In this document: positions 5,263 to 48,544 of the stretch, piece after piece
Layout: each line of letters opens with the position of its first letter
Position numbering within the stretch: position 1 is the stretch's first letter
Source: Limimaricola sp. G21655-S1
GTDB taxonomy: Bacteria > Pseudomonadota > Alphaproteobacteria > Rhodobacterales > Rhodobacteraceae
Direction of reading: 5' to 3'
Assembly: GCF_027213785.1 (NCBI RefSeq)
Contig: NZ_JAPWGO010000006.1
Location: 1 to 64,000 of the forward strand
DNA: 64,000 nt
Position numbers and translations under genes: made by a program
The notes under the pieces: model-generated
Seen by the model: only the letters and a program-made list of their open reading frames with translations
Databases searched by the model: none
Told to the model about the DNA's origin: nothing

Positions 5263-6482
5263 GCCTTGGCCTCCTCTTCGCGGAAGCTGCCCTGATCGGG
5301 GCCGAGATCGGCGCCGTGCCGCGCCGGGCGGCGGCGCTGGGTCCACAGATCCACCAGCCCGCCCAGCCCCTTGGGAGCCAGCAGCGTGACCAGCACGAAG
5401 CTGAAGCCCAGCATCACCAGCCACCAGTCGACCCAGACGAGCCGCAGCGGCCCGAGATCGAGGTCGGGCAGCTTGCCCGAGGTGAAGAAGGAGGAGATCA
5501 GGCTGACCGCGATGGCGCCGATCACCGCGCCATAGAGCCGTCCGCGCCCGCCGATCGCCACCCAGACCGCGAGGTAGATCGAGGCGATCGGCATCATCTC
5601 GGCCGGGTTCACGATCCCCGCCTGCGGGTAGTAGAGCGCACCCGCGATGCCGGTGATCGCCGCCGACAGGGTGAAGACGGCGAGCTTGTAGCCCTCGACC
5701 GGGTAGCCGAGGAACCGCACCCGCGCCTCGTTGTCGCGGATGCCGCGCAGGATCGCCCCGAACTTGCCCGATACCACGAAGGCGCAGAGCAAGTAGCCCA
5801 GTCCCAGTGCCAGCGCCGATCCCCACAGGAACCACAGCGAGACGGTGGATTGCGGCACGCCCGAGAGCCCCGGCAGGTTCTGCAGCCCCGAGAGGCCGTT
5901 ATTGCCGCGCAAACCGGCGTCGTTCTGGAACAGGTAGAGCGCCAGCGCCAGCGTCATCGCCTGGGTCAGGATCGACAGGTAGACACCGGTGACGCGGCTG
6001 CGAAAGGCGAGCCAGCCGAAGACCAGCGCCAGCGCCGAGGGCACGAGCACGACGAGCGCGAGCTGCGCCGGCAGCGAGCCCGAGAAGGCCCAGATCGCCG
6101 GGAAGTCCGAGGAGCCGACCACGCCGAAGATCTGCCCCCCCACCGCGTCGCGGATCTCCTGCGGCGTCGGCGGGATCGCCTGACCGGCGAGGCTCTCGGC
6201 GACGATCCCTTCGGTCCGCGCGGTCATCAGCCACATGCCGATCATGTAGCCGCCAAGCGCGAAGAAGGCGATGTTGCCCAGAGACAGAATGCCGGCATAG
6301 CCCCAGACCAGGTCCATGGCGAGCGCGGCCAGCGCGAGGCAGAGCGTCATCCCCAGCGTCTTGACGAAGCTGGTCGAGAGCCCGCCCGAGGCCGCCATCG
6401 CGGTGATGGCGAGCGTGCCGATCAGCAGCAGCCCCAGTACCACCGGCACCGACGGGTTGCGCTTGAGAAACGAGCCGGTCAT
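5259..6482 (-). CDS. urtC: Urea ABC transporter permease UrtC
   Basis: A 407-residue inner-membrane permease of the LivM type. It shows about ten hydrophobic segments, starting with VVLGLLLIGTLAITAMA. The conserved DLVWGYAGILSLG motif is near residue 57 and the coupling region around GAILRGIRDNEARVRFLGY contacts the ATPases. The C-terminus is a charged cytoplasmic tail. It forms the translocation channel with UrtB. It overlaps urtD by four bases and follows urtB by 37 bases, consistent with one transcript. Confidence 0.93.
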   Translation of the reverse strand: MTGSFLKRNPSVPVVLGLLLIGTLAITAMAASGGLSTSFVKTLGMTLCLALAALAMDLVWGYAGILSLGNIAFFALGGYMIGMWLMTARTEGIVAESLAGQAIPPTPQEIRDAVGGQIFGVVGSSDFPAIWAFSGSLPAQLALVVLVPSALALVFGWLAFRSRVTGVYLSILTQAMTLALALYLFQNDAGLRGNNGLSGLQNLPGLSGVPQSTVSLWFLWGSALALGLGYLLCAFVVSGKFGAILRGIRDNEARVRFLGYPVEGYKLAVFTLSAAITGIAGALYYPQAGIVNPAEMMPIASIYLAVWVAIGGRGRLYGAVIGAIAVSLISSFFTSGKLPDLDLGPLRLVWVDWWLVMLGFSFVLVTLLAPKGLGGLVDLWTQRRRPARHGADLGPDQGSFREEEAKA

Positions 6483-39199: not shown

Positions 39200-40162
39200 T
39201 CAGCCGAGCGCCACCAGCCGGATCTCGCCATCCCATGCCGCGCCGAGCCGCTCGGCCGCCTGCCACGCCCGAAGCCCGGTCCGGCAGCACAGCACGGCGC
39301 GCGCGCCGACGGGCGGGCGCGGGCCATCGGGACCGAACGCGGCCACCGCATGGCGGCGCGCGTGGCGGCAGGGCGGCGGACCCTCCTCGGGGGCGCGCAG
39401 ATCCACGACGAAATCATCGGCGGCGATGTCCCCCGGCGCGATGAAGCGCGGCGCCCGCGCGGGCTCGGCAGCGGCCGAAAAGCCGAAGCCGCCAAAGCGC
39501 CATGTCGCGGCGTCGAAGCTCGCGAGCCGTCCCAGCGGCGACGGCGCCATGCCCGAGAGCTGCGCCAGAGCCATCTGCGCCTGCAGCGCGCCGACGACCC
39601 CCACCACCGGCCCGAGCACCCCCTCCTCGGCGCAGGAGCCCATCCGCGCCGGCAGGTCGGGGAATACCGCCCGCAGGCTCGGCGCACCGCCGCAGAACCC
39701 GCCCGCATAGCCCGACAGGCCGGTGACCGAGGCGCTGATCAGCGGCAGCCCCGCCGCGAGGCAGTGATCCGAGGCGACGTAGCTCGCGGCAAAGCTGTCG
39801 GCGCAGTCGATCACCAGATCGATGCCCTCGCACAGCGCCGCGACATTGCCGGGGTCGAAGCGCTCGACCAGCGGCTCCACCACCGTCTCGGGGTTGAGCG
39901 CGGCCATGCGCCGGGCCGCGACCACCACCTTGGGCCGGTCGATATCGACCATGCGAAACAGGGTCTGCCGGTGCAGGTTGCTCGCCTCGACCCGGTCCGG
40001 ATCGACCAGCCGGACATGGCCGAGACCCGCCCCGACCAGATATTGCAGCACCGGCGCCGCCAGCCCGCCCGCGCCGATCACCAGCGCATGCGCCTCGCGC
40101 AGCCGGGCCTGCGCCGCGTCGCCGAAGCCGGGCACCGCGACCTGTCGCGCGTAGCGGTTCAT
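39200..40162 (-). CDS. thiF: ThiF-type adenylyltransferase fused to a rhodanese-like domain
   Basis: A 320-residue protein. Residues 1-230 are a ThiF/MoeB adenylyltransferase: [15 protein letters not shown] binds [19 protein letters not shown] carries the catalytic Arg and Asp, and [15 protein letters not shown] follows. The C-terminal 80 residues look like a small rhodanese domain with a persulfide-type loop [10 protein letters not shown] (C292-C293). It should adenylate the ThiS C-terminus, and the fused domain could pass sulfur. It is the last gene of the thi operon and overlaps thiE by four bases. Confidence 0.85.
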
Positions 40163-40755
40163 CGCACCGCCCCGATCCAGTCACGCACCCGGCCCTCCGG
40201 GTCGGCGTTCAGCGTGATGTCGGTCACCGCCGAGACGATGTCGGCCCCGGCGGCGAAGGCCTCGGGTGCCCGCGCGACCGAGAGCCCGCCAATCGCGACG
40301 AGGGGGATGTCGCCCACGAGCCGCTTCCATTCGGTGAGCCGCTCCACCCCCTGCCGCTCCCATTTCATCTTCTTGAGGATCGTCGGCCAGACCGGCCCCA
40401 AAGCCACGTAGTCGGGGTCGAGCGCCAGCGCCCGCTCCAGCTCGGCCCGGTCGTGGGTGCTGATCCCGAGCCGCAGCCCGGCGCGGCGGATCGCGGGCAG
40501 ATCGGCGGTGTCGAGATCCTCCTGCCCGAGATGCAGCCAGTCGCAGCCCAGATCGATCGCCGCGCGCCAGTGATCATTGACCACCAGCCTCGCGCCATGC
40601 GCCGCGCAGAGGTCGCGGCCGCGCGCCAGCTGCGCGCGGATCTCGGTGTCGGCGCGATCCTTCAGCCGCAGCTGCACCAGCTTCACGCCCAAGGGCAGCA
40701 TCCGCTCCAGCCACGAGACGTCGTCGAAGATCGGGTAGAACCGGTCGAGGCTCAT
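40159..40755 (-). CDS. thiE: Thiamine-phosphate synthase
   Basis: A 198-residue TIM-barrel enzyme that joins HMP-PP and thiazole phosphate. Family features are [39 protein letters not shown] with the substrate-binding LGQEDLD, and [15 protein letters not shown] near the end. The start overlaps thiG by four bases, indicating translational coupling. Confidence 0.92.
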
Positions 40756-41522
40756 GCGAGAAAGGCCTTGCCGATCAGCGGCGTCGAGGGCGCGGCCATG
40801 TCGCGCGGCTCCATCGCGCCTGCCTCGAATCCCAGCCGCCCGGCCTCGACCGCGCGCGCGAAGCCCTCGGCCATCGCGGCCGGGTCGTCGGCCTTGGCGA
40901 CGGCGGTGTTCAGAAGCACCGCGTCATAGCCCATCTCCATCGCCTCGGCGGCCTGGCTCGGACGACCGAGGCCCGCATCGATCACCAGCGGCACGTCGGG
41001 GAACTGCGCCCGCAGGGCGCGCAGCCCGTAGCGGTTCGCGAGCCCCAGCCCGGTGCCGATCGGCGCGCCCCAGGGCATCAGCACCTCGCAGCCCGCGTCG
41101 AGCAGCCTCTCCGCCAGCACCAGGTCCTCGGTGGTGTAGGGGAACACCTTGAATCCCTCGGCGCTCAGGATCGCCGCCGCCTCGACGAGGCCCCAGGGAT
41201 CGGGCTGCAACGTGTCGGCATGGCCGATCACCTCGAGCTTGATCCAGTCGGTGCCGAACAGCTCGCGCGCCATGCGCGCGGTGGTCACCGCCTCGCGCGC
41301 CGAATGGCAACCGGCGGTGTTGGGCAGGAGCCGCACCCCCAGCTCGCGCACCAGCGCCCAGAAATCCGCGCCCTCGCCCGCCGCCGCCTCGCGCCGCACC
41401 GACACGGTGGCGATGCCCGCACCGGAGCGACGGAACGCCTCCGACAGCACCTTCGGGGAAGGGTATTGCGCCGTGCCGAGCATCAGCCGCGAGGCGACCG
41501 GCGTGCCGTAGAAGCCGAGCAT
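40752..41522 (-). CDS. thiG: Thiazole synthase ThiG
   Basis: A 256-residue barrel protein forming the thiazole ring from ThiS-thiocarboxylate, the glycine imine and deoxyxylulose phosphate. Diagnostic segments are [35 protein letters not shown] and [20 protein letters not shown], ending with [15 protein letters not shown]. Its start is one base after the thiS stop. Confidence 0.95.
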
Positions 41523-41523
41523 T

Positions 41524-41721
41524 TCAGCCTCCCTGCCGTGGCGCGACGATCTCGATCCGGTCGCCGGGCGCGATCGGCGTGGCGGCGCGGGTGCCGGCCG
41601 GGACGAACTCCTCGTTCAGCGCCGTCGCCACCGTTTCGCCGTCGCGCCCGAGCGCGGCCAGCGCCTCGGCCAGAGTCGTGGCCGTCACTTCCTGCGGCGT
41701 GCCGTTAACCATGATCTTCAT
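41524..41721 (-). CDS. thiS: Sulfur-carrier protein ThiS
   Basis: A 65-residue ubiquitin-like protein starting [20 protein letters not shown] and ending APRQGG. The terminal Gly-Gly is the site of adenylation and thiocarboxylate formation. The ATG at 41721 overlaps the thiO end by 17 bases. The longer open frame is the shadow of thiO. Confidence 0.93.
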
Positions 41722-42679
41722 CGCAAACCTCCGGTTTGATGCCGTCGCAGATCCAGTCCGCCGCCATCCGCGCCATGCTGGGCGCGAGTAGGAAGCCGTG
41801 GCGGAACAGACCGTTGACATGGATGATCCCGCCGCGTCGCCGGATGCGCGGCAGGTTGTCGGGAAAGGCGGGACGCGCATCGGCGCCGATCTCGAGTATC
41901 TCGGCTTCGGCGAAGGCGGGGTGCAGCGCGTAGACGGCGCTGAGCAGTTCCAGCGCGGCGCGCACCGTGGCCGGGCCGCGCCCCGCGCTTTCGATCTGCG
42001 TAGCACCGAGCATGTAGATGCCGCCGCCACGCGGCACCACGTAAAGCGGGTAGCGCGGATGCAGCAACCGGACGGGCCGCGTCAGCGCCAGTTCCGGCGC
42101 GCGCAGCACCAGCATCTCGCCGCGCACGCCGCGCAGATCCGCCAGCACGTCGCGCGCGGCCAACCCGCGACAATCGATCGCCGGCCCCGTCGCGCGGATC
42201 TCCCCGGTTTCGAAGGCGACGCCACGCTCGGCCAGCCTCTGCCGCAGCCCGGACAGGGTCGCGCGCGGGTCGAGATGCGCCTCCGTTTCGACATGCAGGC
42301 CGCGCCCGAAACGCCCGGCGAGATCCGGCTCCAGCGCCGCGACCGCCTCGGCATCGAGCAACCGGCCCGGCACCCGGCGCGCGAAACGATCCAGCTCGGC
42401 CCGGTCGCGCCCCAGCGCCACCACCAGCGTGCCGCGCCGGGTCACCTGCGCCCCTTGCGCCTGCCACCATTCGGCGGCCTCGCGGCCGAGCCGCACCACC
42501 GGCTCCTCCGCCGTCTCGCCCTCGCAATCGGGCGCGAGCATGCCGCCCGCCCACCAAGAGCAATGATGCGGGCCGGCCCCCTCCTGCCGGTCGATGACCC
42601 TGACCTGCCGGCCGCGTGCCGTGAGTTCGGCCGCCACGGCAAGGCCCATCACCCCGCCGCCGATGATCTCGCGGGTCAT
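41705..42679 (-). CDS. thiO: Glycine oxidase ThiO
   Basis: A 324-residue FAD-dependent oxidase that makes dehydroglycine for the thiazole ring. The dinucleotide-binding motif is IIGGGVMGLAVAAEL at the N-terminus; CSWWAGGMLAPDCEGE is a ThiO hallmark, and MLGATQIES and GLFRHGFLLAPSMARM fit the C-terminal FAD and substrate region. The start at 42679 overlaps thiD by four bases. ThiO, not anaerobic ThiH, implies aerobic thiazole synthesis. Confidence 0.9.
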   Translation of the reverse strand: MTREIIGGGVMGLAVAAELTARGRQVRVIDRQEGAGPHHCSWWAGGMLAPDCEGETAEEPVVRLGREAAEWWQAQGAQVTRRGTLVVALGRDRAELDRFARRVPGRLLDAEAVAALEPDLAGRFGRGLHVETEAHLDPRATLSGLRQRLAERGVAFETGEIRATGPAIDCRGLAARDVLADLRGVRGEMLVLRAPELALTRPVRLLHPRYPLYVVPRGGGIYMLGATQIESAGRGPATVRAALELLSAVYALHPAFAEAEILEIGADARPAFPDNLPRIRRRGGIIHVNGLFRHGFLLAPSMARMAADWICDGIKPEVCDEDHG

Positions 42680-43476
42680 CGCCGACCCTCGTGGAAATGA
42701 TCCACCGGGCCGTGGCCCGACCCGATGCCGAGCCGGTCGGCGGCGCGGATCGCGCCCGAGAGCCAGCCCTGCGCCCGTTCCAGCGCCGCCTCGGGCGCGC
42801 GGCCGAGCGCCAGCAGCGCCGCCAGCGCGGCGGAGAGCGAGCATCCGGTGCCATGGGTGTTGCGGGTGTCGATGCGTGGGCCCGAGACCTCGTGCAGGCC
42901 GGTCCGGGTCACCAGCCGATCGATGCAGCAGGGACCCGTGGCATGGCCACCCTTCATCAGCACCGCCTCGGGCCCGAGATCGAGCAGCGCGCGCCCCTGC
43001 GCCACGATCTCCTCCGGCCGGGCCGCCACGGGGGCGCCGAGCAGCCGGGCCGCCTCGGGAAGGTTCGGCGTCAGGATCGTGGCGCGGGGCAGCAGTCGCG
43101 CGATCAGCGCCGCGACCGCCGCGTCGTCGAGCAGCGTATCGCCCGATTTCGCGATCATCACCGGGTCGAGCACCATCGGACCGGCATATCCCACGAGCGC
43201 CTCGGCCACCGCCGCGATGATCCCGGCATGGCCGAGCATGCCGATCTTGATCGCGTCGGGCGGGATGTCGTCGCGCACGGCGGCGATCTGCGCCGCGACC
43301 ATCTCGGGCGGGACCGGCATCACCCCGGACACGCCGCGGGTGTTCTGCGCGGTGAGCGCGGTGATCGCCGACGCGCCATAGACGCCGAAGGCGGCAAAGC
43401 TCTTGAGATCGGCCTGGATGCCCGCGCCGCCACCGCTATCCGAGCCCGCGATGGTCAGGGCCGTCTTGATGCGCAT
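42676..43476 (-). CDS. thiD: Hydroxymethylpyrimidine/phosphomethylpyrimidine kinase
   Basis: A 266-residue ribokinase-like enzyme that phosphorylates HMP twice. The N-terminus [20 protein letters not shown] is the family signature, with [24 protein letters not shown] and the catalytic [14 protein letters not shown] at the end. It is the first gene of thiDOSGEF, directly behind the TPP riboswitch. The ATG at 43476 fits the family start. thiC is not in the window. Confidence 0.94.
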
Positions 43477-43535
43477 CGTCTCGCTCCCCCGGACGGGGGA
43501 CGCGGGACGGACCACGGGCGTGACAAGCCTCGGGT

Positions 43536-43726: not shown

Positions 43727-45163
43727 TCAGCGCTCGCCCTCGAAACGGTAGATCGCGAGGCCGCGCTCGCTCTCGTCGATCTCGAGGCGGCGATTGACCG
43801 GCGCATGGGCCCGGCTGGCGCAGTTCGGCCGCTCGCAGAGATAGCAGTTGATGCCGATGCCGGTGGGCGTGATCCGGTCGAGATCGAGCCCCTGCGCATG
43901 GGCGAGGCGCGGCGCATAGGCGACGTCGCAGCCCAGACCGATGGCCAGCCGGGTCGCGGGCTGGCCCAGCGTGCCGCCATGCCGGGTGATGCTGCGCGCG
44001 ATCGAGAAGTAGCGCGCGCCGTCGGGCATCGAGATGACCTGCGTCTGCACCCGGTCTGGCGCCTCGAAGGCGGCGTGGATGTTCCACAAGGGGCAGGTGC
44101 CGCCGAAGGAGGAGAAGGGAAAGCGCCCGGCGCTGAAGCGCTTGGAGATGTTGCCCGCCTGATCGACCCGCACGAAGAAGAACGGGATGCCGCGGGCGCC
44201 CTCGCGCTGCAGCGTCGTCAGCCGATGCGCCACCTGTTCGTAGCTGGTGCCGAAGCGGTGCGACAGCAGTTCCACGTCGTAGCCCGCGCTCTCGCAGGCC
44301 GAGAGAAAGCGGCCATAGGGCATCAGGAGCGCGGCGGCGAAGTAGTTGGCGAGGCTGACCCGCGCCAGCGCCAGCGCCGAGGGGTCGGTCAGCCCCGAAT
44401 CCGCGATCTCGTCGGCGATCTCCTGGCCGCGCTCCAGCCGCGCCAGCAGCACCGCCATCTGGAACCGTCGGCTCGGCTGGCCCAGAAGCTCCGACAGGCG
44501 CAGCTCGCCGCGATGCGCCACGTGCTGGCGCAGCCGTCCCGCCATGACGTCCGATGGCAGGATGCGGACCCGCACGTCATGCGCGCGCAGCCGCTCGGTC
44601 AGGGCGGTGTGCGGCTCGCTGCGGTGCAGCTTCATCTCCTCGGCCATGGCCTCGGCGGCGCGGTCGAGGCTGTCGACATGGTTGCGCCGCTCGAACAGCC
44701 AGGCCCGCACCGCCTGCACCGCGCGGCTGCCCTCCTCCAGCACCTCGACCTTGTCGCGATCCGCCAGCGGGTTGGTGTCGGTCTGGCGCGACAGCACCAG
44801 CTGCCGGTAGCGGTCATGCAGCCGCACCAGCGCCGCCGCGACGTTCGGCGCGGCCGAGAGCGCCTGCTCGATCTCGACCCGGCCCACCTCGGCTTCGAGC
44901 ACCGGGTCCTTCAGCGCCGCGCCGAGATCGGCGGCGAGCTGCGCGTCGGTCTCGGGCGCCAGTTCGCTCACATTGATGTCGAAGGCTTCGGCCAGCCGCA
45001 TCAGGAGCTTGGCCGAGGCGGGGCGCTGGTTGCCCTCCATCAGGGTGACGTAGCTCGACGACACGCCGAGCCGCCCCGCCATCTGCGACTGCGTCAGCCC
45101 CAACGAGACGCGCAGCGCCTTGAGCCGGGGGCCGATCAGGAGTTTCTGGCTGCGATCGCTCAT
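43727..45163 (-). CDS. ScfR-type (short-chain fatty acyl-CoA) transcription regulator
   Basis: A 478-residue regulator. An N-terminal XRE helix-turn-helix (LKALRVSLGLTQSQMAGRLG then VSSSYVTLMEGNQRP) is followed by a helical region, an IrrE/DUF955-like central part and a C-terminal ScfR domain with cysteines in GGTCPLWNIHAAF and CYLCERPNCASRAH. Proteins of this type include RamB and PccR, which sense acyl-CoA and control glyoxylate-shunt or propionate genes. The gene is divergent from the malate-synthase-like and isocitrate lyase genes, so it probably controls them and itself. Confidence 0.87.
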   Translation of the reverse strand: MSDRSQKLLIGPRLKALRVSLGLTQSQMAGRLGVSSSYVTLMEGNQRPASAKLLMRLAEAFDINVSELAPETDAQLAADLGAALKDPVLEAEVGRVEIEQALSAAPNVAAALVRLHDRYRQLVLSRQTDTNPLADRDKVEVLEEGSRAVQAVRAWLFERRNHVDSLDRAAEAMAEEMKLHRSEPHTALTERLRAHDVRVRILPSDVMAGRLRQHVAHRGELRLSELLGQPSRRFQMAVLLARLERGQEIADEIADSGLTDPSALALARVSLANYFAAALLMPYGRFLSACESAGYDVELLSHRFGTSYEQVAHRLTTLQREGARGIPFFFVRVDQAGNISKRFSAGRFPFSSFGGTCPLWNIHAAFEAPDRVQTQVISMPDGARYFSIARSITRHGGTLGQPATRLAIGLGCDVAYAPRLAHAQGLDLDRITPTGIGINCYLCERPNCASRAHAPVNRRLEIDESERGLAIYRFEGER

Positions 45164-45315
45164 TTCATGACTAACAATGTTTCAATCTTACGGCTTACAT
45201 AAATTACATCATTACCCGTTAGCAACAAAATTATGCTGCACCTGCGCGATGACCACACTAACCTTACAGACAGAAAGGCGTCGATCCTCCCTTCGGCGCC
45301 GGCAACAGGAAGGTC
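45164..45315. promoter_or_regulatory. AT-rich divergent promoter region of the glyoxylate-shunt locus
   Basis: A short, AT-rich region between the regulator and the malate-synthase-like gene. It contains three CTAAC half-sites (45171-45175, 45218-45222 inverted, 45258-45262) that could be regulator sites. No canonical RamB TTTGCAAA palindrome was seen. Confidence 0.45.
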
Positions 45316-46845
45316 ATGCAGATGCCACTCGATCTCGTCCCCGCCCCCGCAGCGCCCAAGCCGGTCCTGCTGCGCGACGTGCCGGGTGCCGGCCGCGTCC
45401 TGACCGATGACGCGCTGGCGCTTGCCGCCGAATTGCAGACCCGTTTCAATCCCAAGATGCAGGCGCTCTCGGTCGCCCGCGACCGTCGGCAGGAGCGCGC
45501 CGATGAAGGCCGCCTGCCCGATTACCTCGAGGAGACCACCGGCATCCGCAAGGGTGTCTGGGCCTGCGACCCGGCCCCCGAGGCGCTGCGGGACCGCAGG
45601 CTCTGCCTCGCCACCGCCGCCGAGGCAGGCGGGCTCGCCGTCGCCCGCGCCGCCGGGGCCACGACGCTCCTTGTCGATCTCGACGAGGCCACCGCGCCCG
45701 GCTTCGCCAACCTGATCGCGGGCTTCGCGGCGCTGGCCGAGACCCCGGACGACCCCACGCCGATGCTGTTCCGCCCGCGGCCGCTCGATCGCGACGAGGC
45801 GGCGCTGCTCATCGGCGGGCATCCGGTCTCGGCCGGTCTGTTCGATCTGGCGCTGATCCTCACCCATTTCGGGGCCAGCCTCTCGGCCCGCGAGATGGGG
45901 CCCTATCTGCAGATCGGCGCGATCGACAGCCACCGCGAGGCGCGGCTCTGGTCCGAGATCATCGCCATCGCCGAGGAGCGCACCGGGCTGGCGCCGGGCA
46001 CGATCCGCGTCGAGGTGTCGCTCGAGACCGTCAATGCCGGTTTCGAGATGGACGAGATCCTGTGGGAACTGAGAAGCCGCGCGCTCGGCCTGACGATGCG
46101 CCGCGCGCCGCTCACCGCCTCCTATCTGCGGCTGATGCGCGCCCATGGCGACGCGCTGCTGCCAGTCAAGCTCGACCCCGAAGCCGCTTTCCTTGGCACC
46201 TGCGCCGCGCGCATGGTCAAGGTCGCGCATCGCCGCGGCACCCATGCCATCGCCGAGGCGCCGGATGGGAGCAATCCGGCACAGCTGCGTCGCCCGCTCG
46301 ACGAGGGCTGCGACGGGCTCAGGCTCGACGCGCCGGACCGGATCGACGCGGCGCGCGAGGCGATCGCCCGGGCGCTGCCGGGGCCGCATCAGATCGGCCG
46401 CCCGCGCCAGTATTTCCGGATCAGCCCCGAGATGCTGCTGAAGCCCCATGCCGGTCCCGTCACCGAGGCCGGGCTGCGCGGCACGATCCATGTCGCCATC
46501 GCGGCGCTCGCCGCCTGGATCGCCGGGCGCGGCCCGGTGCGGATCGAGGAAAGCCTGCATGGCCTCGCCTCGGCCGATCTCGCCCGGGCTAGGCTGGGCC
46601 AGTGGCTGGCCCATGGCGCCAGCGTCGAAATGGAGGCGGGCGAGACGCGCCGCATGACCGCCGACTGGCTGGCCGAGCTGATCCACGAGGAGATCGTGGC
46701 GCTGGTCGAGTGGCTCGGACCGCACAGCTTCCATCGCGGCCGCTACGCCTCGGCCGCCCGGATCGTGCAGGAGGCCGCCTGCGCCAGCCCGCAACCCGAT
46801 CACGTCGCCCGCCTCGCGGCGCCGCTGCTCGACACGCTCGACTGA
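45316..46845 (+). CDS. Malate synthase A-like protein with degenerate active site
   Basis: A 509-residue homologue of malate synthase A. Shared segments are LPDYLEETTGIRKGVW, ALRDRRLCL, GLFDLALILTHF, GPYLQIGAI and FEMDEILWELR. Comparison from memory with E. coli AceB shows many active-site changes: FEDS becomes LDEA; RVRGLHLPE becomes RPRPLDRDE; GRWDY becomes RRAPL (A264); AHPGL is gone; and the catalytic Asp of MEDAATAE falls on G416 (LHGLASAD). It is probably not an active malate synthase, perhaps a pseudoenzyme. A second ATG at 45322 has better spacing to AGGAAGG. It is followed by isocitrate lyase. Confidence 0.75.
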   Translation: MQMPLDLVPAPAAPKPVLLRDVPGAGRVLTDDALALAAELQTRFNPKMQALSVARDRRQERADEGRLPDYLEETTGIRKGVWACDPAPEALRDRRLCLATAAEAGGLAVARAAGATTLLVDLDEATAPGFANLIAGFAALAETPDDPTPMLFRPRPLDRDEAALLIGGHPVSAGLFDLALILTHFGASLSAREMGPYLQIGAIDSHREARLWSEIIAIAEERTGLAPGTIRVEVSLETVNAGFEMDEILWELRSRALGLTMRRAPLTASYLRLMRAHGDALLPVKLDPEAAFLGTCAARMVKVAHRRGTHAIAEAPDGSNPAQLRRPLDEGCDGLRLDAPDRIDAAREAIARALPGPHQIGRPRQYFRISPEMLLKPHAGPVTEAGLRGTIHVAIAALAAWIAGRGPVRIEESLHGLASADLARARLGQWLAHGASVEMEAGETRRMTADWLAELIHEEIVALVEWLGPHSFHRGRYASAARIVQEAACASPQPDHVARLAAPLLDTLD

Positions 46846-46851
46846 GATCAC

Positions 46852-46883
46852 GCGGGGGCCTCGCACTGGCTTCGGGCCCCCGC
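46852..46883 (+). repeat. Hairpin between malate-synthase-like gene and isocitrate lyase gene
   Basis: Nine-base arms GCGGGGGCC and GGCCCCCGC with a 14-base loop lie just after the first stop codon. No T-run follows. It could separate expression levels of the two genes or be an mRNA processing or stability element. Confidence 0.45.
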
Positions 46884-46915
46884 CCCACCCCATCAACACC
46901 CAAGGACCCACCCAA

Positions 46916-48544
46916 ATGACCGATATGACCCCCCCGAGCCGAAAGACCTATGCCGAGCGCCGTGCCGCGCTGCAGGCGCGCTTTCCCGAAGGCGCCGCCC
47001 CCGGCGGCATCGGCATCGACGACATCCTGCAGCTGCAGATGCAGAACACCTACAACACCCATCTCGACATCGCCCGCGACATGGCGAAGGTGATGCGCGC
47101 CGACATGGCCGCCTATGACGCCGACCCCGAGCATTTCACGCAAAGCCTCGGCTGCTGGTCCGGTTTCCACGCCCAGCAGATGATCCGTTCGGTCAAGCGG
47201 CTGCGCGGCACCACCAAGGGCGCCTATGTCTATCTCTCGGGCTGGATGGTCGCGGGGCTGCGCAACCGCTGGGGCCACCTGCCCGACCAGTCGATGCACG
47301 AGAAGACCGCCGTGGCCGACCTGATCGAGGAGATCTACGTCTCGCTGCGCCAGGCCGACGAGGTCGAGCTCAACGACCTGTTCCGCGCCCTCGACAAGGC
47401 GCGCGAGAGCGGCGATGCCCAGGCCGAGCGCGACGCCGTCACCGCGATCGACGGCTTCGAGAGCCATGTCGTGCCGATCGTCGCCGATATCGATGCGGGC
47501 TTCGGCAACGAGCACGCGACCTACCTTCTGGCCAAGGAGCTGATCAAGGCCGGCGCCTGCTGCCTGCAGATCGAGAACCAGGTCTCCGACGCCAAGCAAT
47601 GCGGCCACCAGGACGGCAAGGTCACGGTCCCGCGCGAGGATTTCATCGAGAAGCTGCGCGCCTGCCGCATGGCCTTCGAGGAGCTGGGCGTCACCGAGGG
47701 CGTGATCGTCGCGCGTACCGACAGCCTCGGCGCGGGGCTGACCCAGAAGCTCCCCGTGAGCCAGGCCCCCGGCGATCACGCGGCCGAATACCTCAAATGG
47801 GTCGAGACCGAGAGCATCGACGGCGAGCCGACCGAGGGCGAGATCGCGATGTGGCGCGATGGCGGCTGGGCCAAGCCTGCGCGGCTGCCCAACGGCCTCG
47901 TGCGCTTCAAGGAGGGCACCGGGCGCGCGCGGGTCATCGAGGATTGCGTGGCCTCGCTCAACGACGGCGGCGCCGACCTGATCTGGATCGAGACCGACAC
48001 ACCCAACGTGGCCGAGATCGCCTCGATGGTCGCCGAAATCCGCGAGAAGGCGCCGAAGGCCAAGCTGGTCTACAACAACTCGCCCTCCTTCAACTGGACC
48101 CTGAACCTGCGCAAGCAGGTCCGCGCCGACTGGATCGCCGAGGGCAAGATCGCCGAGGCCGATTACCCGGACGGCACCGCGCTGATGAAGGCCGAGTTCG
48201 ACGATACCGAGCTGGGCCGCGAGGCCGACGCGAGGCTCAAGCGGTTCCAGTACGACATCTCGACCAAGGCGGGCGTGTTCCACAACCTGATCACCCTGCC
48301 CACCTTCCACCTGACCGCGAAATCGGTGGACGAGCTGTCGCGCGGCTATTTCGGCGAGGACCGGATGCTGGCCTATGTCGCCACCGTGCAGCGCGAGGAG
48401 ATCCGGCGCGGCATCTCGGCGGTCAAGCACCAGCACGAGGTCGGGTCGGATCTGGGCGACAGCTTCAAGGTCATGGTCGGCGGCGACCGGGCGCTCAAGG
48501 CCGGGGGCCATGCGAACACGATGAACCAGTTCGCGGCCGAATGA
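46916..48544 (+). CDS. aceA: Isocitrate lyase
   Basis: A 542-residue long-form isocitrate lyase that splits isocitrate into glyoxylate and succinate. The active-site loop is AKQCGHQDGK (K227-H231, with catalytic C229); family segments are HVVPIVADIDAGFGN, LIKAGACCLQIENQ, GVIVARTDSLGAG and LVYNNSPSFNW. The KQCGH variant replaces the more usual KKCGH and occurs in the long Pseudomonas-type subfamily. CAAGGA upstream provides the ribosome-binding site. It ends at two strong hairpins. Confidence 0.96.
   Translation: MTDMTPPSRKTYAERRAALQARFPEGAAPGGIGIDDILQLQMQNTYNTHLDIARDMAKVMRADMAAYDADPEHFTQSLGCWSGFHAQQMIRSVKRLRGTTKGAYVYLSGWMVAGLRNRWGHLPDQSMHEKTAVADLIEEIYVSLRQADEVELNDLFRALDKARESGDAQAERDAVTAIDGFESHVVPIVADIDAGFGNEHATYLLAKELIKAGACCLQIENQVSDAKQCGHQDGKVTVPREDFIEKLRACRMAFEELGVTEGVIVARTDSLGAGLTQKLPVSQAPGDHAAEYLKWVETESIDGEPTEGEIAMWRDGGWAKPARLPNGLVRFKEGTGRARVIEDCVASLNDGGADLIWIETDTPNVAEIASMVAEIREKAPKAKLVYNNSPSFNWTLNLRKQVRADWIAEGKIAEADYPDGTALMKAEFDDTELGREADARLKRFQYDISTKAGVFHNLITLPTFHLTAKSVDELSRGYFGEDRMLAYVATVQREEIRRGISAVKHQHEVGSDLGDSFKVMVGGDRALKAGGHANTMNQFAAE

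Follow-up and report, generated by a model that had tools for sequence, protein, structure and literature searches.

The window, a stretch of 64,000 nucleotides from the genome of Limimaricola sp. G21655-S1, contains a homolog of the malate synthase A (MSA) gene (hereafter ms) flanked by genes for a ramB/ScfR-type regulator and isocitrate lyase (icl) (Table 1). As originally predicted, ms is an intact open reading frame (ORF) lying between these two genes, whose identities we confirmed by domain searches. The isocitrate lyase gene is the sole PF00463 locus found in the window genome, and the closest solved structure to its product is 6g1o. A minus-strand run of ORFs adjoining ramB (positions 39200–43515) presumably serves thiamine biosynthesis, as its members appear by eye to be thiF-, thiE-, thiG-, thiS/thiO-, and thiD-like.

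The gene order is that of a RamB-type glyoxylate operon, with ms and icl after a divergent ramB. It recurs in Paracoccus denitrificans (Pden_1365/1364/1363), where ramB is reversed upstream of the ms gene Pden_1364 and icl lies downstream of it; RamB of this species activates the operon from upstream of ms, according to the accessible text of PMC10370305; the same icl and ms genes of P. denitrificans are named in PMC6747724. Conserved blocks in the ramB–ms intergenic region form an alignment footprint across Limimaricola and, in part, in relatives. A crude search for paired 9-base boxes, a rough stand-in for the published class 2 RamB box, gave no match in Limimaricola.

The probable true start of ms is the second ATG (position 45322), because it is common to all five other full-length Limimaricola sequences, among which the first ATG occurs only in L. 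soesokkakensis. An antisense ORF that spans the entire gene (45160–46911, minus strand, 583 amino acids) was rejected as coding. It is interrupted by a stop in L. soesokkakensis, whose ms product is 98 per cent identical to that of the window. The same frame is free of stops in five of the seven intact relatives checked; all five have high third-position GC, which accounts for the open frame in these genes.

Table 1. Features of the ramB–ms–icl locus and of the ms product (window coordinates; residue numbers refer to the 509-amino-acid protein)
Feature	Position	Strand	Remarks
ramB/ScfR-type regulator	43727..45163	-	HTH, Peptidase_M78, and ScfRs domains; divergent, upstream of ms
ramB–ms intergenic region, putative RamB-controlled promoter	45164..45315	.	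Conserved blocks
ms, MSA homolog, putative MSA-derived pseudoenzyme	45316..46845	+	509 amino acids, intact ORF
Leu122-Asp123-Glu124 for Phe-Glu-Asp	45679..45687	+	Conserved acidic pair, order swapped; presumed role
Arg153-Pro-Arg155	45772..45780	+	Arginines retained
Glu237	46024..46026	+	Mg-ligand position retained
Pro265 for second Mg-ligand Asp	46108..46110	+	Asp kept only in L. pyoseonensis
Residues 413–430, ex-catalytic loop and following helix	46552..46605	+	dN/dS 0.09 (0.00–0.28) within genus
His415-Gly416 for Glu-Asp	46558..46563	+	Catalytic base lost
Residues 456–509, C-terminal helical part	46681..46842	+	Most constrained region
Isocitrate lyase	46916..48544	+	542 amino acids, KQCGH intact

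Fold and active site of the MSA homolog

The alignment with MSA over nearly the full length, which the original prediction had noted, is borne out. The Pfam domains MS_N, MS_TIM-barrel, and MS_C all score above their cut-offs, and residues 27–490 align with Escherichia coli MSA (3cuz; E-value 2.1e-52). An AlphaFold model of the protein has a pLDDT of 91.0 and a pTM of 0.91 and matches E. coli MSA chain 3cv2_B in Foldseek with a TM-score of 0.92 (2.0 Å, 27 per cent identity). The MSA fold, known from the E. coli structures 3cuz, 3cv1, and 3cv2, is therefore predicted to be intact. The score against the MSA equivalog model TIGR01344 is 253.3 bits, below the cut-off of 594.5, whereas the six family genomes above that cut-off score 669–724. 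The protein thus has the domain architecture and predicted fold of a functional MSA, and lacks the equivalog-level score, the catalytic Asp, and the complete pair of Mg ligands.

We compared motifs in six full-length Limimaricola sequences and 27 other MSAs (33 aligned rows). The 27 comprise 23 of the 72 non-Limimaricola contig loci, which were drawn from the best 80 of 335, and four family relatives. We take the residue roles to fall on the RPR, ED, IET, GRWDY, and MEDAATAE motifs, an assignment inferred from residue descriptions rather than from a superposition. According to the accessible text of PMC3832036, the key residues are an Arg, the catalytic Asp, an Mg-binding Glu and Asp, and, holding the waters of the Mg ion, a Glu-Asp pair; the Mg ligands and the water-holding pair are absolutely conserved in the CitE-like superfamily, and replacement of the catalytic base Asp631 by Asn abolishes the activity of E. 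coli malate synthase G (MSG).

The substitutions that the original prediction had read by eye recur throughout the genus. The catalytic Asp of MEDAATAE is Gly416: ED[A/V]ATAE is found in all 27 other MSAs and HGLASAD in all six full-length Limimaricola sequences. HGLASAD was also read in a split copy (genome G196) and a cut copy (genome G199), so that the catalytic Asp is Gly in all eight Limimaricola genomes. GRWDY, invariant in the other 27, is replaced by RRAPL (four Limimaricola sequences), RAAPL (one), or RRADL (one, L. pyoseonensis), and the Mg-ligand Asp is accordingly Pro in five of the six. The change from FEDS to LDEA is equally general, with FED in 25 of the 27 other MSAs (plus one LED and one CED) and LDE in 6/6 Limimaricola. 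The AHPGL motif is likewise altered, AHP being DAP in most Limimaricola rows, and both the GGMAA region and a hairpin ahead of RPR are shorter.

Three further points add to the earlier reading. Arg153 and Arg155 of RPR are invariant across all 33 sequences, as is Glu237, and the Glu-Asp pair, kept in all 27 other MSAs, is swapped to Asp-Glu rather than removed in all six Limimaricola sequences. Within the genus, all six sequences share His415, Asp421, and the HGLASADLARARLGQW segment. Compared with E. coli MSA, the Limimaricola protein thus has Gly for the catalytic Asp, Pro for an Mg-ligand Asp, a swapped Glu-Asp pair, and some shortened loops. The retained Arg and Glu are also conserved in the related TIM-barrel proteins of the CitE-like superfamily (malyl-CoA lyase and malyl-CoA thioesterase), where a change of the base from Asp to Glu in the thioesterase group is the only variation noted in the accessible text (PMC3832036); the Limimaricola base position is Gly. 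From these residues, we infer that the Limimaricola MSA homolog is without malate synthase activity. The copy of L. pyoseonensis, the most divergent in the genus, retains the Mg-ligand Asp (in RRADL) and possibly represents an intermediate state of the loss.

Distribution of the altered gene and its metabolic setting

The altered gene occurs in all eight Limimaricola genomes (the window genome and seven others), as six single full-length matches, one match at a contig edge (G199), and one in three pieces (G196). The G196 copy is split across frames; glcB is split in the same genome as well, and the split ms therefore suggests an assembly error. Outside the genus, an order-level search (5 of 196 genomes match the protein, with the window genome counted) and a family-level search (6 of 394 genomes exceed the TIGR01344 cut-off) together yielded nine relatives. 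Matches to ramB and icl adjoin ms in all nine, and the nine syntenic orthologs are 37–45 per cent identical to the Limimaricola protein. All six motifs checked are intact in every one of these RamB-linked relatives (four of which are also among the 27 MSAs), whereas Limimaricola has lost the catalytic Asp and one Mg ligand. No parallel loss of the active site was found among the 27 non-Limimaricola rows or the nine family relatives.

A separate glcB, whose presence the original prediction had proposed to check, is found in the window genome and throughout the genus. Matches to the GlcB model TIGR01345 occur in all eight Limimaricola genomes (seven above the cut-off, the eighth being the split G196 gene) and in all nine relatives (eight above the cut-off). 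Six GlcB motifs lie in one frame in seven of the eight Limimaricola genomes, and G196 has five of the six over two frames. GlcB of the window genome aligns end to end with MSG structures, best with 5oas (E-value 1.8e-288). In genome G491, that of one relative, we observed two MSG-like matches (C2:876669-878777 and C1:1154704-1156875; 975 and 488 bits) in addition to an intact MSA. For crotonyl-CoA carboxylase/reductase (Ccr), a key enzyme of the ethylmalonyl-CoA pathway, matches at an E-value of 1e-60 occur in none of the eight Limimaricola genomes and in four of the nine relatives; with 75.8 bits, the best match in the window genome falls short of the cut-off (378.55). With GlcB present and Ccr not found, isocitrate lyase and GlcB probably carry acetate assimilation.

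In a genome from another genus of the family (G218), ramB and icl are about 150 bases apart (locus L172, about 6323–6476), with no ms between them or within the 13 kb examined. Promoter-like blocks directly before icl are similar, by eye, to the Limimaricola intergenic blocks. The only TIGR01344 match in this genome is weak (1.4e-10) and within the range of GlcB matches, and ms has apparently been cleanly lost or was absent originally. An operon of this type is thus possible without ms, and the selective retention of the altered copy in Limimaricola is notable for that reason. Two further genera have a more distant icl (56–57 per cent identity) in the vicinity of ramB-like genes, and the 14 kb examined contain no ms.

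Rate of change and selection after the loss

In a phylogeny of MSA proteins, the six full-length Limimaricola sequences form one clade (support 100/100), and a larger group of 15 rows (support 100/100) unites them with the nine relatives that have a RamB-linked ms. The G196 and G199 copies were left out of all trees and rate tests. The Limimaricola stem has a length of 1.31 changes per site, and the amino-acid composition of all six Limimaricola rows was flagged as unusual. The ratio of MS to isocitrate lyase (ICL) distances is 1.85 among relatives, 5.1 for the stem leading to Limimaricola, and 3.2 inside the genus, and therefore points to a burst of change on the stem followed by partial slowing. 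In five of the relatives, the end of the locus truncates ICL and RamB. The RamB/ICL ratio has no such rise (2.19, 1.41, and 1.21, respectively).

We estimated dN/dS by the NG86 method, pooling counts across pairs and bootstrapping codons, without modeling the tree, for six Limimaricola species and, as the intact comparison, four of the nine relatives. Over the whole gene, dN/dS of Limimaricola ms is 0.31 (0.26–0.36), about twice the 0.15 of both icl and ramB (a first version with a slightly different site count gave 0.30 versus 0.15 for both neighbors). Limimaricola ms is under purifying selection after the loss and is not simply decaying.

By region, there are two clear and opposite shifts, whereas the remaining intervals overlap. 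In the barrel (residues 91–357), dN/dS is raised to 0.38 (0.30–0.46) versus 0.16 (0.11–0.21) in intact relatives; residues 271–312 within it are also tight in Limimaricola (0.20). In the last 54 residues (456–509), it is lowered to 0.08 (0.03–0.17) versus 0.30 (0.18–0.47), with intervals that almost touch (upper bound 0.17 in the six Limimaricola species, lower bound 0.18 in intact relatives). The tightest thirds of ICL and RamB (0.09 each) are under similar constraint. Without L. pyoseonensis, the estimates are 0.28 (0.21–0.35) for the barrel and 0.12 (0.07–0.19) for residues 358–509. Elsewhere, Limimaricola and the matching stretches of intact relatives have values of 0.29 and 0.20 (residues 1–90, N-terminal part), 0.23 and 0.25 (358–412), and 0.56 (0.23–1.07) and 0.59 (431–455, the loosest stretch). 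The catalytic loop (413–430) is tight both in Limimaricola (0.09), where it has lost its base, and in intact relatives (0.06).

Mean identity over residues 456–509 is 95 per cent in Limimaricola, 64 per cent in the RamB-linked intact enzymes, and 35 per cent in other MSAs (19 of 23 outgroup rows, those over 490 amino acids). DNA-level constraint at the 3′ end of ms, such as an icl promoter, was rejected as the cause of this conservation: the synonymous difference (pS) at 456–509 is 0.32, not below the gene mean of 0.31, and is lower at 358–412 (0.25) and 431–455 (0.22). Among 456 of the 509 residues (columns gap-free in Limimaricola with at least 20 other rows), universal columns that Limimaricola has kept are invariant within the genus in 64 of 75 cases, whereas those it has changed are invariant in 36 of 67, like never-conserved columns (68 of 121; P-value = 0.76). 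As changed columns are no more invariant than these, the old pocket overall is without new strong constraint, except in the 413–430 loop.

Possible roles of the retained protein

The presence of ms in every genome of the genus examined and the selection on it despite the lost residues suggest that it probably has a second, non-catalytic role in the glyoxylate shunt operon. Two features expected of a pseudoenzyme are found here: a homologous fold, predicted to be intact, in which catalytic residues present in active-looking relatives are lost, and purifying selection after the loss. The explanation that we favor, with modest confidence, is that a redundant former shunt enzyme has been kept as a pseudoenzyme that acts as a binding partner via its C-terminal face. 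Its ancestor would have been the glyoxylate-cycle MSA of a RamB-type ms–icl operon. The presence of GlcB would have made this enzyme redundant, its catalytic machinery would have been lost on the Limimaricola stem, and the protein would then have been retained. The RamB promoter may drive its expression together with that of isocitrate lyase, and the protein may bind a partner through its C-terminal face with the barrel as a scaffold, while GlcB would condense the glyoxylate released by isocitrate lyase. The most likely partner would be another shunt protein, namely isocitrate lyase, GlcB, or RamB. Judged from sequence comparisons, the non-catalytic role probably resides at the C-terminal end and involves contact with a shunt protein.

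The original prediction had offered either a pseudoenzyme with a regulatory or scaffolding role in the shunt or an enzyme with a new activity. The pseudoenzyme is favored by the selection after the loss, the relaxed barrel, and the tightened C-terminus; regulation and scaffolding stay a proposal. That the altered malate synthase is a dedicated regulatory or scaffolding subunit, which by C-terminal binding tunes or channels flux through the shunt, is a tentative suggestion that we hold to be possible rather than probable. A role confined to binding at the C-terminus would not account for the tightness of the 413–430 loop in both altered and intact sequences, constraint varies across the C-terminal half (residues 431–455 are the loosest stretch), and partial relaxation of a gene evolving at about twice the rate of its neighbors would also give a dN/dS of 0.31. 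If the protein is such a subunit, similar conversions could be found by the same signature, constraint that has moved from the barrel to the C-terminus; in Limimaricola, net acetyl-CoA assimilation appears to run through isocitrate lyase and GlcB.

The main rival to the pseudoenzyme account, which we consider rather unlikely, is that a remodeled pocket binds or converts another acyl-CoA or oxo-acid, as a neofunctionalized enzyme or a metabolite sensor, through Arg153/155, Glu237, the swapped Asp123-Glu124, and perhaps His415. Such a ligand-binding or enzymatic role is conceivable, given what remains of the pocket: Arg153, Arg155, and Glu237 are unchanged in all 33 sequences, the His415-Gly416 loop is invariant, with His415, Asp421, and HGLASADLARARLGQW fixed within the genus, and residues 413–430 have a dN/dS of 0.09. 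Against this, Pro takes the place of the second Mg ligand in five of six sequences and Gly that of the catalytic base in all six, the barrel as a whole is less constrained than in intact relatives, formerly universal columns that changed show no extra conservation, and the protein has a shorter GGMAA region and a shorter hairpin ahead of RPR. It is far less credible still that the protein remains a malate synthase with a slow or altered mechanism and another residue as base. The predicted fold, the arginines, and one Mg ligand are kept as this would require, but replacement of the corresponding Asp631 by Asn abolishes activity in E. coli MSG (PMC3832036, accessible text), and the second Mg ligand is lost as well in five of the six sequences.

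Alternatively, GlcB may suffice and ms may be decaying, as an undeleted remnant or as a frame kept open to avoid polarity on icl. The presence of GlcB in all eight genomes, the raised rate on the genus stem, the doubled whole-gene dN/dS, and the split copy in G196 are in line with decay. We nevertheless regard it as improbable: the species compared have all lost the active-site residues and still show a dN/dS far below 1, the ORF is full-length in six genomes, and G218, with ramB and icl but no ms, has no need of a spacer there. Neutral decay in particular is disfavored because of the low C-terminal dN/dS, which at 0.08 is close to that of the tightest thirds of the neighboring proteins.

Pseudoenzymes are well known in signaling; descriptions from central carbon metabolism are rarer. 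In the open-access literature, we found no published malate synthase pseudoenzyme and no paper on Limimaricola together with malate synthase; matches for inactive or paralogous malate synthases included none evidently on a bacterial MSA pseudoenzyme, and the term "malate synthase-like" was not used among the matches listed. Glyoxylate-cycle genes and pseudogenes in Metazoa are treated in PMC1630690, and the main text of PMC10370305 names neither Loktanella nor Limimaricola. One bacterial family here offers a comparison of three operon states (ms active-looking, apparently dead but kept, and absent), together with the partial intermediate of L. pyoseonensis. Automatic annotation may label the product of the altered gene a malate synthase and would then mislead metabolic models of these marine bacteria.

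According to its sequence record, the ramB–ms–icl operon of L. hongkongensis lies on a 103-kb plasmid, pLokhon02, and the operon may be extrachromosomal elsewhere in Limimaricola too.
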